Assembly: GCF_907163105.1 (NCBI RefSeq)
Contig: NZ_OU015321.1
Span: 620,001 to 684,000, forward strand
Reading direction: 5' to 3'
From: Cloacibacterium caeni
Lineage (GTDB): Bacteria > Bacteroidota > Bacteroidia > Flavobacteriales > Weeksellaceae
Length of the DNA stretch: 64,000 nt
Part shown: positions 42,034-48,109 of the stretch, one piece after another
How the letters are laid out: each line of letters starts with the position of its first letter
Position numbering within the stretch: position 1 is the stretch's first letter
Notes under the pieces: model-generated
What the model was told of the DNA's origin: nothing
Seen by the model: the letters and a program-made list of their open reading frames with translations, nothing else
The model's database searches: none
Program-made: the position numbers and the translations under genes

Positions 42034-42453
42034 TTACTTTTTAAAACGTTCCCATTTTATCATCATAAACTTATCTCCGAATTCGGTAATGATGAGCCCA
42101 GAACCTTTTAAATTTTCTTCATTTCTGATGTATTCTGCGAGTTCTATTTGTTTGAAAACCTTATAGGTAGCATGGAAATCCGAATGTGGTGGTTTTTTAA
42201 TGTTGTATTCCTTAATCCAAGAACTGATAGTGACATGCGAAATGCCCAGAATACGCTCTATTTCTCTTAAACTGAGGCCTTCTAAATAGAGTTGTAAAGC
42301 TTTCGTTACATAGTAATCATCTATCTTTTTTCCAATTTTATTTACCGTGAAATAGTAATTGCAGTCTCTGCAAAAATAGCGCTGTTTTCCTTTAACAATG
42401 CCACTTTTAACGATTTCGGAGTTTTCGCATTTCGGGCAACAATTTATTTTCAT
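42034..42453 (-). CDS. Zinc-ribbon plus helix-turn-helix protein (IS1 InsA-like, domesticated)
   Basis: 139 residues from the ATG at 42453. A -7 box at 42475-42468 excludes the longer frame start at 42489. The N-terminus is a CPxC...CxxC zinc ribbon of IS1 InsA type (CPKCEN ... QRYFCRDCNYYF). It is followed by a resolvase-like HTH (GLSLREIERILGISHVTISSWIKEY) and a non-transposase C-terminus. There are no IS ends and no InsB, so it is probably a regulator for the porin/transporter block. Confidence 0.75.
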   Translation of the reverse strand: MKINCCPKCENSEIVKSGIVKGKQRYFCRDCNYYFTVNKIGKKIDDYYVTKALQLYLEGLSLREIERILGISHVTISSWIKEYNIKKPPHSDFHATYKVFKQIELAEYIRNEENLKGSGLIITEFGDKFMMIKWERFKK

Positions 42454-42467
42454 ATATACGTTTTTAG

Positions 42468-42475
42468 CAAAGATA
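42468..42475 (-). promoter_or_regulatory. Putative -7 box of the zinc-ribbon HTH gene
   Basis: Minus-strand TATCTTTG, 14 bases upstream of the ATG at 42453. Confidence 0.55.
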
Positions 42476-42525
42476 TACTTATTTTGCAATAATAATGTTA
42501 AATAAAATTAATTTTTTCTAAAAAT

Positions 42526-42556
42526 TTTGAAGGCAAAAAGTTAATATGTATATTTG
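42526..42556 (+). promoter_or_regulatory. Promoter of the pyrB operon
   Basis: TTTG (42526-42529), exactly 19 bases, then TATATTTG (42549-42556): a full match to the Bacteroidetes consensus TTTG-N19-TAnnTTTG. The transcript should start near 42561-42563. Confidence 0.75.
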
Positions 42557-42562
42557 CATCCA

Positions 42563-42637
42563 ATGAAAACGATAAATTTTTTATTGAACATAAATATCGG
42601 ACTTCAATCCGACGGACAAAATATTTTTATTTATTGA
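42563..42637 (+). CDS. Putative pyr leader peptide (24 codons)
   Basis: ATG 42563 to TGA 42635-42637 encodes 24 residues (MKTINFLLNINIG, then LQSDGQNIFIY). The last codons are U-rich (AATATTTTTATTTAT). The stop codon touches the 5' arm of the terminator at 42637. A small hairpin TCGGA / TCCGA (42597-42601 / 42608-42612) lies inside. The arrangement matches leader peptides of pyrBI-type attenuators. The ATG lies at or very near the predicted transcript start, so translation would be nearly leaderless, which is the weak point. Confidence 0.5.
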   Translation: MKTINFLLNINIGLQSDGQNIFIY

Positions 42638-42667
42638 AAACGAAGCTGTTGGGGCTTCGTTTTTTTT
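42637..42667 (+). terminator. Attenuator terminator before pyrB
   Basis: Perfect 10-bp stem AAAACGAAGC (42637-42646) / GCTTCGTTTT (42654-42663), loop TGTTGGG, eight T from 42660 to 42667. It lies between promoter and pyrB ATG (42687) with no other gene, so it must regulate the operon. A ribosome at the leader stop codon would cover the 5' arm. Confidence 0.8.
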
Positions 42668-42686
42668 GCTTAAAAACCATTAAATC

Positions 42687-43577
42687 ATGATTAAATTATC
42701 CAGATTATCATTAGAGAGCGTTGAAAAATTATTAAATCAAGCGCTGGAATTCGCAAACGGCAAAACAGTAAAGGCCAAATCAGACATTTTTGTAGCGAAT
42801 CTTTTTTTTGAAGACAGTACCAGAACGAAAATAAGTTTTGAGGTGGCTGAGAAAAAATTAGGATTGCACGTAGTGCATTTTGATGAGTCAAAAAGTTCTA
42901 TCAATAAAGGCGAAAGTCTTTTAGATACCATTAAAACACTGGAATCAATTGGGATAAACCTTTCCGTAATAAGACACCAAAAAACCAGATTTTATGATGA
43001 ATTGAAAGGTGTGAAAATGGGAGTGGTAAATGCTGGAGACGGAATTGGGCACCATCCAAGTCAAGCTTTACTGGATTTAATGACCATTAAACAAGAATTT
43101 GGAGAAATCAAAGATTTAAAAATAGGAATCGTAGGAGATATTAAACACAGTAGAGTAGCTAATTCTAATGCCACTACATTAAGAAGATTAGGGGCAAAAG
43201 TGTATTTTTCCGGACCAAGAGAATGGTTTGATGAAGGAAGTATAATGAACGGAACCTATAGAGATTTAGATGCACTGGTTACAGATGTAGATGTACTCAT
43301 GTTGCTTAGAATTCAGCACGAAAGACATGATGAAAAAATGAAATTGACGCCTCAAGATTATCTCAAAAAATATGGTCTTACCAAAGAGCGTGAGCAAAAA
43401 ATGAAACCGAATGCCATCATTATGCATCCTGCTCCAATTAACAGAGGAGTAGAAATAGACAGTGATTTGGTAGAATGCGAACGTTCTAGAATCTTTAAAC
43501 AAATGCAAAATGGAGTATTTGCAAGAATGGCCATCTTGAAAAAAGTTTTAGAAGAAAGAGGTTTTGAATTTGAATAA
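42687..43577 (+). CDS. pyrB: Aspartate carbamoyltransferase catalytic chain
   Basis: 296 residues. Carbamoyl-phosphate binding FEDSTRTKISFE, the HPSQALLDLMT segment, the aspartate-side loop and HPAPINRGVEID are all present. Commits carbamoyl phosphate to pyrimidine synthesis by forming N-carbamoyl-aspartate. No pyrI regulatory chain follows, so allosteric control by nucleotides is unlikely, in line with control at the attenuator upstream. First gene of pyrB-carA-carB. Confidence 0.95.
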   Translation: MIKLSRLSLESVEKLLNQALEFANGKTVKAKSDIFVANLFFEDSTRTKISFEVAEKKLGLHVVHFDESKSSINKGESLLDTIKTLESIGINLSVIRHQKTRFYDELKGVKMGVVNAGDGIGHHPSQALLDLMTIKQEFGEIKDLKIGIVGDIKHSRVANSNATTLRRLGAKVYFSGPREWFDEGSIMNGTYRDLDALVTDVDVLMLLRIQHERHDEKMKLTPQDYLKKYGLTKEREQKMKPNAIIMHPAPINRGVEIDSDLVECERSRIFKQMQNGVFARMAILKKVLEERGFEFE

Positions 43578-43638: not shown

Positions 43639-44712
43639 ATGAAAAAGAAATTAATTTTAGAATCAGGTGAAGTTTTTCACGGACAAGGTTTTGGTGCAAA
43701 TACCGATACTGAAGGAGAAGTGGTGTTCAATACCGGGATGACTGGTTATCAAGAACTCATTTCAGACCCTTCATATTGCGGTCAAATTGTAACCATGACT
43801 TATCCATTAATTGGTAATTACGGAATTAATAGAGATGATTTCGAAAGTATTGAGCCCGCTATTAAAGGCTTAATCGTGAGGGAATTGTGTGATTTTCCTT
43901 CTAATTTCAGAAGTCAATTGTCTTTAGATGAATTTTTTGCCAAAAAAAAGCTATCAGGAATTTCAGGAATTGATACCAGAAAACTGACTAGAATTATCAG
44001 AAATCATGGGGTTTTAAAAGGAAAAATTGTAGATGAAAATGCAGATGAAACAGCAGTAATTGCTGAACTGAAAACTAAAAATTTCCCAACCAATCAAGTG
44101 GAGCAAGTTTCTACCAAAACGCCTTATGCAAGTCCAGGAAGAGGTTTCAAAGTGGTTTTAGTGGACTTTGGTTCTAAATTAGGCATTATCAGAGAACTTT
44201 CTCAGAGAGATTGCGACATCATCGTGGTGTCTCAAGATACTACTGCGGATGAGATTCTACTAATGAATCCAGATGGAGTAATGCTTTCTAACGGTCCTGG
44301 TGATCCACAAGATGTAAAAGGTGCTTCAGAATTAATCAATGGTTTACTGGGTAAAGTTCCAATCTTCGGAATTTGTTTAGGTCACCAGTTAATTGGTTTG
44401 GCTTGTGGAGCAAAAACCTATAAATTAAAATTCGGTCACAGAGGTGGAAATCACCCAGTTCTAGATTTAAAAACAGGTAAAGTAGCGATTACTTCTCAGA
44501 ATCACGGTTATGCAATAGACGAAGAATCTCTAGAAAATACCGATTTAGAAGTAACACACATCGCTCTGAATGATAAAACAAACGAAGGAGTTCGTCATAA
44601 GAAATATCCATGTTTTTCAGTACAATATCACCCAGAAGCAAGTCCAGGTCCAGAAGATGCCAATTATCTTTTTGACGAGTTTGTGGAAATGATGGAAGAG
44701 TTTAAAAAGTAG
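43639..44712 (+). CDS. carA: Carbamoyl-phosphate synthase small chain
   Basis: 357 residues. The N-terminal CarA domain starts [14 protein letters not shown] and has [10 protein letters not shown]. The C-terminal class I glutaminase has [12 protein letters not shown] with the nucleophile Cys, and the His/Glu pair in YHPEASPGP. Releases ammonia from glutamine for CarB. It lies 61 bases after pyrB. Confidence 0.95.
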
Positions 44713-44929: not shown

Positions 44930-47900
44930 ATGAAAAGAACAGATATTAAAACCATTTTAGTAATAGGAAGCGGCCCAATTATCATCGGGCAAGCTGCAGA
45001 ATTTGATTACGCAGGAACTCAAGCTTGCCTTGCATTAAAAGAAGAAGGGTACAGAGTTATCCTCATCAATTCTAATCCTGCAACCATCATGACCGATGTA
45101 GAAATTGCAGACAAAGTATACATAGAGCCTATTTCTCTTCCATTTGTAAGTCATATCATCAGAAAAGAACGTCCAGATGCGCTTTTGCCAACTTTGGGTG
45201 GACAAACTGGATTGAACATGGCGGTAGAATTACAGAATTCTGGAATTTTAGAAGAATGTGGAGTAGAAGTTCTTGGGACTAAACTTTCTGCCATCAATAG
45301 AGCAGAAGACAGAGATTTGTTCCGTGAATTAATGAGAGAATTAAACGAGCCGGTTCCAGATTCTGATATTGTAAATACAGTAGAAGGAGCATTAGCTTTT
45401 GCAGAAAAAATTGGTTATCCAGTAATCGTTCGTCCTGCTTTTACCATGGGTGGAACAGGTGGTGGAATCGCTCATGATGAATACCAACTGACAGAAATTG
45501 CAGAACTAGGACTGAAACATTCTCCAGTGACTCAATGTTTAATTGAAAAATCAATTGCTGGGTTTAAAGAAATAGAATACGAAGTAATGCGCGACAAAAA
45601 CGATAACGCTATCGTGGTTTGTAACATGGAAAACATAGATCCAGTAGGTGTTCATACTGGAGATTCTATTGTAGTAGCGCCTTCGCAAACGCTTTCTGAC
45701 AGAGAATATCAAATGCTCAGAAATGCTTCACTTAAAATTATTAGAGCTCTCGGAATTGAAGGAGGTTGTAACGTACAGTTGGCTTTAGACCCTCATTCTT
45801 TCAACTATTATATCATCGAAGTAAATCCTAGAGTTTCTAGAAGTTCGGCTTTAGCAAGTAAAGCAACGGGTTATCCTATTGCGAAATTAGCGGCTAAAAT
45901 TGCAGTAGGACTTACTTTAGACGAAATGCTTAATCCGGTGACTGGAAAAACTTATGCTTGTTTCGAGCCTGCCCTGGATTATGTAGTGACTAAAATTCCT
46001 AGATTCCCATTTGATAAATTCGAAACTGCCGACAGAAGACTTTCTACGCAGATGAAAGCAACGGGTGAAGTGATGGCGATTGGTAGAAGTTTTGAAGAAT
46101 CATTAATGAAAGCCATTCGTTCTTTAGAAACGGGATTGCAACATTTAGGATTAAAAACCAAACCAGCACTTGCTTTAACAGACGAAGATATCGAACGCAG
46201 AATTAGAGTGTGTGATGACGAAAGATTATTCATCATCGGCGAAGCTTTAAGAAGAGGTTATGATTGGGAAACCATTGTAGAATGGAGTAAAATAGATAAA
46301 TTCTTCGTTTGGAAATTCAAAAAACTGATTGATTTTGAAAAAACCATTGCGGAAAATAAATTCAACAAAGAAATATTACTGGAAGCGAAAAGATTAGGCT
46401 TCTCAGACATTAATATCGCACATCTTTGGGAAACAGACCACAGAGAAATCTTCAAGTTCAGAAAAGAAAACGGAGTAATGCCGGTTTACAAAATGGTAGA
46501 TACTTGCGCCGCAGAATTTGAATCTGCTACTCCTTATTTCTACGGAACGTATGAAGAAGAAAACGAGAGCATTCCTTCTGATAAAGAAAAAATTATCGTT
46601 TTAGGTTCTGGTCCTATCAGAATTGGTCAAGGTGTAGAATTTGATTACGCTACCGTTCATTCAGTTTGGGCGATTAAGCAAATGGGTTACGAAGCGATTA
46701 TCATCAATAATAACCCAGAAACCGTTTCTACAGATTTCTCGATTTCAGATAAACTATATTTCGAGCCTTTAACTGAGGAAGATGTAATGAACATCATAGA
46801 ACTCGAAAAACCAAAAGGAGTGATTGTACAATTTGGTGGACAAACTGCAATCAACCTTGCAGATAAATTGGCCGCTCATGGAGTAGAAATTCTGGGAACT
46901 TCTCTAGAAGATTTGGACAGAGCCGAAAACAGAGATAAATTCGAACAAGCACTTCAGGAACTTGGAATTCCTCAACCATTAGGTAAAACGTGTTTCTCTA
47001 AAGAAGAAGCAATTAAAATTGCCAATGAAATTGGATTCCCAGTTTTAGTGAGACCAAGTTACGTTCTGGGAGGAAGAGCCATGGAAATCGTTTACAACGA
47101 TGCCGAACTAGACCATTACATGGAACATGCGGTAGATGCAAGTCCAGAACATCCTGTGTTAGTAGACCGTTACCTCACCGGAAAAGAAGTAGAAGTAGAT
47201 GCAATTTGCGATGGCGAAACTACTGTAATTCCTGGAATTATGGAACACATCGAAAGAGCAGGAGTTCACTCAGGAGATTCTATTGCGGTATATCCTCCAC
47301 AAACGCTTACTCCAGAACAAATTGCAACACTGGAAGATTATACCAAACGTTTAGCAAAAGGGTTGAAAGTAATAGGTTTAATGAATATTCAGTATGTAAT
47401 TTCTGATGGAAATGTCTATGTGATTGAGGTAAATCCTCGTTCATCGAGAACCGTTCCTTTCTTGTCAAAAATTACAGAAGTTCCAATGGCGAATTTAGCG
47501 ACCAAAGCAATTCTCGGAGCAAATCTGAAAGATTTAGGCTACCAAGATGGATTGGTTCCAAATAAAGAAGGAATTTTTGTAAAAGTACCAGTATTCTCGT
47601 TCAGTAAATTAACAAGAGTAGATGTAACTTTAGGGCCAGAAATGAAATCTACTGGAGAAGTAATGGGCAAAGATTCTACGCTAGAAAAAGCCTTGTACAA
47701 AGGTTTAATCGGTGCAGGTAGAAAAGTTCCTTTACACGGTTCTATCTTATTTACCATAGATGATGTGAACAAGCCAGAAGCTGCAAGATTAGCAAAAAGA
47801 TTCTACGATATAGGTTTCAAAATTTGGGCAACCAGAGGAACTTCTAGATATTTTAACGAGCTCAATATCCCAACCAAAATTGGTTATAAAATAGAAGAAG

Positions 47901-48109
47901 AAACAGAGAACTTAATCAGTTTAATCCAGAAAGGAAAAGTACAATATGTAGTCAATACCACTACTAAAGGAAAACAATCGATGAATGACGGATTCTTAAT
48001 TCGTAGAACTTCGGTAGAAAATGGTGTTCCTTGTCTTACCAGTATGGATACTGTGGAAGCAATGCTCAAAGTAATCGAAAGCATGACTTTCAAAATGGAA
48101 AAAATGTAA
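44930..48109 (+). CDS. carB: Carbamoyl-phosphate synthase large chain
   Basis: 1059 residues with the duplicated ATP-grasp architecture. The first half has [20 protein letters not shown] and the second [17 protein letters not shown]. Each half has its ATP-grasp core and the [12 protein letters not shown] / [13 protein letters not shown] loops. The C-terminal MGS-like allosteric domain includes [12 protein letters not shown]. Makes carbamoyl phosphate for pyrimidines and arginine. Last gene of the operon; hairpin elements follow at 48117. Confidence 0.96.

Follow-up and report, generated by a model that had tools for sequence, protein, structure and literature searches.

A conserved near-leaderless reading frame and terminator form a likely UTP-responsive attenuator upstream of pyrB-carA-carB in Weeksellaceae

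Our analysis indicates that the pyrB-carA-carB operon of Cloacibacterium caeni and its relatives in Weeksellaceae is preceded by a transcription attenuator that is coupled to translation of a short leader ORF and that, in the reading we consider likely, senses UTP. The anatomy of this element, its conservation, its open reading frame, its covariation and the absence of PyrR were observed directly; UTP dependence, polymerase pausing, blocking of the terminator by a ribosome, the transcript start point and the roles of two upstream hairpins (HP1 and HP2) are inferred. The DNA that we analyzed, referred to here as the window, covers 64 kb of a closed genome of 2.72 Mb. Among named relatives, Cloacibacterium normanense is the closest (PyrB 97% identical), and NCBI taxonomy places the genus in Weeksellaceae, Flavobacteriales. 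The papers cited below by PMC number were available only in part, and what we take from them is limited to those parts. The features of the locus, in window coordinates, are:

42526..42556, plus strand: promoter, TTTG-N19-TAnnTTTG, with TTTG at 42526-42529, 19 nt, and TATATTTG at 42549-42556; read from the sequence
42560..42562, plus strand: 5' end of the near-leaderless transcript, 2-3 nt upstream of the leader ATG; inferred, unmapped
42561..42586, plus strand: HP1, a 5'-end hairpin pairing the leader start codon (42561-42569 with 42578-42586); predicted by folding
42563..42637, plus strand: leader ORF of 24 codons plus TGA, MKTINFLLNINIGLQSDGQNIFIY; read from the sequence, frame kept open across clusters
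42597..42612, plus strand: HP2, a candidate pause hairpin, TCGGA-CTTCAA-TCCGA, 9 nt 5' of the U tract; from folding and paired changes
42622..42635, plus strand: U-rich tract UAUUUUUAUUUAUU, the proposed UTP-sensitive pause region; from U enrichment across leaders
42636..42667, plus strand: intrinsic terminator (attenuator) overlapping the leader stop codon; from a terminator scan and covariation
42687..43577, plus strand: pyrB, aspartate carbamoyltransferase (NCBIfam NF002032 equivalog)
43639..44712, plus strand: carA (NCBIfam NF009475 / TIGR01368 equivalog)
44930..48109, plus strand: carB (NCBIfam NF003671 equivalog)

A preliminary description of this DNA had proposed a pyrBI-style attenuator, and its account of the parts agrees with our reading of the sequence. 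The TTTG-N19-TAnnTTTG promoter is exact, the 24-codon ORF (42563-42637) and the small internal hairpin (42597-42612) lie where it had placed them, and a U-rich tract, which we read as 42622-42635, is present upstream of the terminator. Its perfect 10-bp terminator stem corresponds to the 10 Watson-Crick pairs (42637-42646 with 42654-42663) inside a 12-pair stem (42636-42664) that overlaps the leader stop codon, and the eight T are found at 42660-42667, the first four or five of them shared with the 3' arm of the terminator. HP1, the hairpin over the leader start codon, was absent from that description. The gap from the TAnnTTTG box to the leader ATG (42563) is 6 nt. When we scanned a 4-kb region for terminators, the attenuator ranked first among nine listed sites and had the longest stem; the shuffled region yields 2.1 sites (sd 1.3). 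The 146-nt leader folds with an energy of -28 kcal/mol (z -2.3), which was equalled by 5 of 200 shuffles. Since the gene upstream of the promoter (42034-42489, minus strand) is divergent, the terminator belongs to the leader and not to the 3' end of that gene. The product of the divergent gene matches an IS1-like protein at 78.9 bits, against an NCBIfam equivalog cut-off of 100, and contains an IS1/IS1595 zinc-binding domain above cut-off; it may be a domesticated transposase fragment.

We sampled pyrB loci from 59 related genomes, our own included (the best 30 were taken as loci), and a further 80 from GTDB contigs, 10 of them from Bacillaceae. With the Bacillaceae loci (L102-L111), L002 and duplicates excluded from the leader counts, deduplication left 91 distinct upstream regions, all from Weeksellaceae apart from four MAG contigs, and 69 distinct ATG-to-terminator regions; these form 26 clusters at 80% identity and 42 at 92%. 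In 90 of the 91 upstream regions, a TAnnTTTG box is joined by an ATG 5-7 nt downstream and by an intrinsic terminator before pyrB, the exception being L031, which has no such promoter and ATG. The box-to-ATG gap is 6 nt in 82 of these leaders, 5 nt in seven and 7 nt in one. The frame set by the ATG stays open to 6 nt or less from the terminator in 25 of 26 clusters, compared to 8 and 2 for the other two frames and to a mean of 7.2 and a maximum of 14 in 500 dinucleotide shuffles. Of the 26 clusters, 16 have a stop codon flush with the stem (-4 to +3), nine have it well past the stem's first base, and one has it early (L026, 8 nt before the stem); an early stop is also found in L022/L096, 13 nt before the stem. 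Given this recurrence and an in-frame ORF far above shuffled expectation, the element is more than a chance arrangement.

Lack of conservation of the ORF or U tract in relatives would have counted against the proposal, and this comparison did not refute it: leader ORF, U tract and terminator are conserved across the family. The preliminary description had named as its weak point that the leader ATG lies almost at the predicted transcript start. That proximity turns out to be conserved, with the ATG 5-7 nt from the -7 box in 90 of 90 leaders, and the predicted near-leaderless start is a hallmark of the family; the start site itself is unmapped. The attenuator reading is supported, and dependence of read-through on UTP and on leader translation remains unproven.

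To search genomes, we used a covariance model (R1) built from the element. In the genome of the window, the model finds one strong match (E 1.2e-9), all others having E values of 0.2 and above, and it matches 29 of the 59 genomes, comprising 29 of 36 in the family and 0 of 23 in other families; all 30 matching places lie 15-134 nt before pyrB. In a wider sample, the element is present in 153 of 197 family genomes and in 25 of 33 genera, and this pyrB in 163 of the 197. In that search, the ten genomes that have pyrB without a detectable element are nine of genus g16 and G083. A set of 395 Bacteroidota genomes gave nine R1 matches, all within the family. These searches used strict filters, with 62, 18 and 9 candidates scored per genome, and weak or diverged copies may be missed. 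We set aside four of the weaker matches in the genome of the window, G000 (L117, L118, L119 and L121), which resemble 3'-end terminators (ORFs were listed for L117 and L118 only), and second matches in genus g23 (L181-L184), G079 (L185) and G017 (L186), which do not precede pyrB; the L182 match sits where a large ORF ends.

A few loci depart from the common arrangement. In L031/L202 and genus g16, pyrB is only 51% identical and has no TAnnTTTG-plus-ATG leader, and an AT-rich tract and terminator still precede it; these loci could hold a diverged form of the element that uses a different start codon. The L022/L096 leader (G009) lies 134 nt before pyrB, compared to 15-53 nt at the other 29 places, and carA is on a separate contig there; this attenuator is possibly decaying or rewired. 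Three MAG contigs labelled Chitinophagaceae (L089, L094 and L100) and one labelled uncultured Bacteroidetes (L097) carry the same leader and PyrB, and are either misbinned, misnamed or the result of transfer. We found no published account of the element in the literature searched, which largely left out subscription papers, and a low-threshold Rfam scan of the region returned four sub-threshold matches, all implausible. The element could join Rfam as a family.

Across 69 distinct leaders, the mean U fraction is 0.57 in the final 18 nt before the stem, compared to 0.28 in the remaining leader. Relative to the ATG, the U tract is found in each of the three phases (22, 10 and 10 of 42 sequences, with mean U of 0.57, 0.52 and 0.52); in L058 the frame is shifted and the tract retained, with reading continuing through the terminator. 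Substitutions between near relatives are spread over codon positions 1, 2 and 3 as 17, 18 and 16, 11 of 50 substitutions in the leader ORF are synonymous, and comparison across leaders found no shared codon run among the peptides. As far as these alignments can tell, the leader peptide is not conserved while the frame is kept open. Because the peptide drifts and the tract occurs in any phase, nucleotide sensing fits better than amino-acid sensing: that the frame would matter and the peptide would not is predicted by nucleotide sensing through polymerase pausing, and is hard to square with control codons. Because the tract contains A as well as U, general slowing in AT-rich sequence is not excluded as an alternative to U-specific pausing.

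In an alignment of 42 sequences, pairing reaches 99.5% in the terminator helix, where 4 of 9 pairs have changed on both sides, and 63.9% in HP1. HP2 has both sides changed at all six pairs, with 62% of cells paired in one register. Covariation scores 0.218, versus 0.140 in shuffled alignments, of which 0 of 500 reached the real value, and the score falls when the partners are slid. Such scores can be inflated by relatedness of the sequences, and the scored structure was written by hand from the alignment, in which the HP1 and HP2 registers shift; RNAalifold on a MAFFT alignment recovered the terminator only, without HP1 or HP2. The HP2 region has a mean MFE of -6.88 kcal/mol across 26 clusters, versus -4.42 (sd 0.35) when shuffled. 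Singly the hairpin is weak, reaching z -2 in only 5 of 26 clusters. The spacer between its 3' end and the U tract has a median of 9 nt and a range of 0-26, and 15 of 26 clusters fall at 9-11 nt; the accessible part of a scan for hisL-like pause hairpins describes use of a 10-nt spacer, and groups the E. coli pyrL pause with those whose structures are too weak to stabilise the pause (PMC9291695). For HP1, the AUG has a mean pairing probability of 0.646, compared to 0.428 in shuffles, none of 60 being as high. A start-codon hairpin is found in about half of clusters and is not universal, being absent in Epilithonimonas and others.

Two lines of inference bear on where the transcript begins. In Flavobacterium psychrophilum, the TAnnTTTG box is placed at -12 to -5 (PMC9723704, as far as available), which with the 6-nt gap would place +1 at the second base upstream of the leader ATG. 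In the second, we counted CATT, the complement of AATG, at +7 to +36 without any folding: it occurs in 12 of 25 clusters (the one cluster of 26 without AATG being omitted), compared to 4.1 (sd 1.8) in mononucleotide shuffles, none of 2000 reaching the real count. In these 12 clusters, pairing continues outward at ATG-2, -3, -4 and -5 in 9, 7, 2 and 1 (expected 4.0, 3.4, 3.2 and 3.5), and by distinct 5' regions in 22, 24, 3 and 6 of 33. Both T-A and C-G occur as the ATG-2 pair, and 25 of 26 clusters have a pyrimidine (C or T) at that position. Because helix pairing holds at ATG-2 and ATG-3 and drops beyond, the RNA probably starts 2-3 nt upstream of the AUG, an inference that awaits mapping. 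A stricter fold gave pairing in 18, 15, 6 and 6 of 25 distinct rows at the same four positions, and at cluster level in 4, 5, 4 and 1 of 8 versus 2.8, 3.2, 2.7 and 2.0 expected, which is no clear signal. We rejected an initial count of 41 of 51 for pairing at ATG-2, which was biased by upstream bases in the fold and by false Epilithonimonas helices. The start-point argument rests on the fold-free count, not on the fold-based ones.

PyrR scored above its curated cut-off in 17 of the 59 genomes: 17 of 23 in other families, adjoining pyrB in all 17, and 0 of 36 in Weeksellaceae, where only weak phosphoribosyltransferase matches to the PyrR model were found (best E 2e-8). PyrI (PF02748) was detected in 0 of 59 genomes, and none is in the window operon. 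These counts strengthen the earlier remark that neither pyrI nor pyrR lies next to pyrB here. The presence of the element goes with the absence of PyrR. We examined the region upstream of pyrR at 14 of the 17 PyrR-adjacent loci. At nine of these there is no room for such a leader, because the nearest promoter box is only 12-35 nt before the PyrR match; the remaining five are unresolved, two without a box and three with one 73-187 nt away.

We weighed four other explanations for these features. The leader ORF, hairpins and terminator are all parts of an amino-acid-responsive attenuator of the trp/his type, in which the ribosome stalls at control codons; carAB also serves arginine, and strong clues to such attenuators have been described before amino-acid operons of F. 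psychrophilum (PMC9723704, in part). We nevertheless rejected this explanation, and give it scarcely any credence, chiefly on the neutral-like drift of the peptide by codon position and synonymous fraction; the peptides also lack a common codon run, HP2 and the terminator do not overlap, and the folds contain no mutually exclusive antiterminator, for which no systematic search was made. The same drift weighs on the idea that the leader ORF encodes a functional small protein and the terminator only damps constitutive expression. Such a protein would account for the open frame, but not for evenly spread substitutions, a widely divergent peptide and a stop position set by the terminator rather than by peptide length, and we think there is next to no chance that it is correct. 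An attenuator that binds a protein or ligand, as PyrR-like control or a riboswitch would, has in its favor that the PyrR attenuator of Bacillaceae relatives stands at the same place in four of six loci searched. Against it, PyrR is missing above cut-off from all 36 family genomes, no Rfam 15 family, and so no PyrR-binding RNA, matches at gathering score in the window, nor does Rfam in L032, L091 or L097, few columns outside promoter, ATG and terminator are near-invariant, and the open frame is left unexplained. PyrR control itself we rejected, and the broader class strikes us as very improbable.

The main switch might instead be start-site choice with a 5' hairpin, the terminator only reporting leader translation. 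E. coli pyrC and pyrD are controlled by start-site switching with a 5' hairpin; at pyrC, a transcript started at a pyrimidine forms a hairpin that hides the start codon, and one started 1-2 bases later leaves the start codon free. HP1 is commoner than chance, its pairing reaches ATG-2 and ATG-3 and falls at ATG-4 and ATG-5, and ATG-2 is nearly always a pyrimidine, all as such a switch would have it. However, the CATT partner is absent in 13 of 25 clusters, whereas the U tract and open frame are near universal, and the stricter fold-based count lacks a clear cluster-level signal; we regard start-site choice as the main switch as improbable. A two-checkpoint switch would combine both features: a 5'-end hairpin whose outermost pair is set by the initiating pyrimidine would open or shut the start codon and so decide whether a pioneer ribosome loads, and a race in the U tract would then decide whether it arrives at the terminator in time. 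Such a switch would have arisen after uptake of a Bacillaceae-type pyr operon without PyrR control. We hold this combination only tentatively and think it unlikely; if true, one RNA of ~110 nt would read nucleotide supply twice, at initiation and at elongation.

In the mechanism that we favor, attenuation by UTP-dependent pausing in the U tract, transcription would start 2-3 nt before the leader AUG and a ribosome would load once the 5' end emerges. When UTP is ample, the polymerase would clear the U tract ahead of the ribosome, the terminator would fold, and pyrB-carA-carB would not be transcribed. When UTP is scarce, the polymerase would stall in the U tract, perhaps aided by HP2 ~9 nt upstream; the ribosome would catch up and either halt at or pass the stop codon flush with the 5' arm of the terminator, blocking the stem so that the operon is transcribed. 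HP1, where present, would shut over the start codon once its 3' arm emerges, and may limit loading to the first ribosome or, alternatively, tie ribosome loading to the choice of start base; its role is the least certain step. Published work on E. coli, as far as available, bears on several of these steps. Ribosomes almost completely repress a terminator that follows a stop codon by several bp, an effect that fades as the stop-terminator distance nears about 30 bp; similar effects with a steep distance curve are stated to have been found earlier for pyrBI (PMC4824070). This fading of repression with distance would account for the flush position of the stop codon in the leader. Terminators are effective when they lie within the first 100 bp of a coding region (PMC4824070), which is consistent with termination being the default state of this leader. 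At low UTP in vitro, E. coli polymerase halts at the hairpin pause of pyrL, and termination is reduced when a ribosome is coupled to it (PMC10135430).

Three sequence features that define this mechanism class, a leader ORF reaching the terminator, a U-rich tract and a terminator before pyrB, are present; translation of the leader, and read-through that needs it and rises as UTP falls, are predicted from them. As in E. coli pyrBI (leader pyrL), the ORF reaches an intrinsic terminator just before pyrB and a hairpin lies ~10 nt before the U-rich tract (11 nt from hairpin to T run in pyrL). Unlike in E. coli, where the T run starts 28 nt before the stem, the Weeksellaceae tract abuts the stem, the ORF is near-leaderless and has a start-codon hairpin in about half of clusters, the stop is usually flush with the stem where pyrL ends just before pyrB, and the operon is pyrB-carA-carB without PyrI. 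UTP-dependent stuttering has been described for pyrBI (PMC6245113, in part), whereas the predicted Weeksellaceae start region (mostly YYAATG; start unmapped) lacks a T run for stuttering of that type. R1 gave no match at E <= 1 to the E. coli locus (L187). On the tests made, with no R1 match to E. coli and no PyrI, the element would not be a pyrBI leader by descent, and it is apparently a convergent variant of the pyrBI-type attenuator that evolved independently of the E. coli one.

Other pyrimidine controls share single features with this element. Like E. coli pyrC and pyrD, it can form a 5'-end hairpin over a translation start, but the AUG enclosed by this hairpin belongs to a leader ORF that precedes a terminator, and start switching is only hypothetical. 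In the E. coli rph-pyrE attenuator, the stop codon also falls just before the terminator; the leader there is a full gene, unlike the short ORF of Weeksellaceae. The Bacillaceae PyrR attenuator (RF00515) occupies the same position in a related operon, whereas here we found neither PyrR-binding RNA nor PyrR, and a leader ORF, presumed translated, stands instead.

If our reading is correct, Bacteroidota independently invented a textbook E. coli switch, the likely cause being a Bacillaceae-type operon in a family without PyrR. It would also mean that close transcription-translation coupling is required in bacteria without Shine-Dalgarno sequences, and that a near-leaderless ORF acts as a regulator. 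Transcriptome maps of such bacteria, in the available parts of two reports, show that mRNAs with no leader or a very short one are few: 5' UTRs under 10 nt make up about 3.7% in Bacteroides (PMC7366714) and leaderless mRNAs 5.5% in F. psychrophilum (PMC9723704).

The operon itself resembles that of Bacillaceae, with identities of 59-62% for PyrB, 63-68% for CarA (9 of 10 loci) and 70-77% for CarB, compared to 39-45% (14 loci), 40-48% and 43-51% for the window proteins against other Flavobacteriales families. A tree of 39 PyrB rows separates the 14 PyrR-adjacent rows with a support of 99/100. Many other forks are unresolved, the family PyrB is not a single clade, and the E. coli and L202 branches are long, and that separation is the only claim we draw from the tree. 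A search of Bacillaceae leaders against Rfam, covering 6 of the 10 loci, found the PyrR attenuator directly before pyrB in four (L103, L106, L107 and L109). Judged by protein similarity, which for the whole pyrB-carA-carB operon is highest to Bacillaceae and low to other Flavobacteriales, transfer between phyla is probable; its direction is inferred. The simplest history is that a Bacillaceae-type operon was transferred without PyrR control and a new translation-coupled attenuator arose at the same place. L097 carries pyrC between pyrB and carA, which is the Bacillus order, and the Bacillaceae loci show a pyrC-sized gap there; a gap of this size is also present in L081, L089, L091 and L100. 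Six of the 36 family genomes (G013, G015, G023, G026, G033 and G034) have no PyrB match at E <= 0.001, which could reflect either pyrimidine auxotrophy or a different enzyme, and four of these, G013, G015, G026 and G033, carry different CarA and CarB proteins (44-47%).
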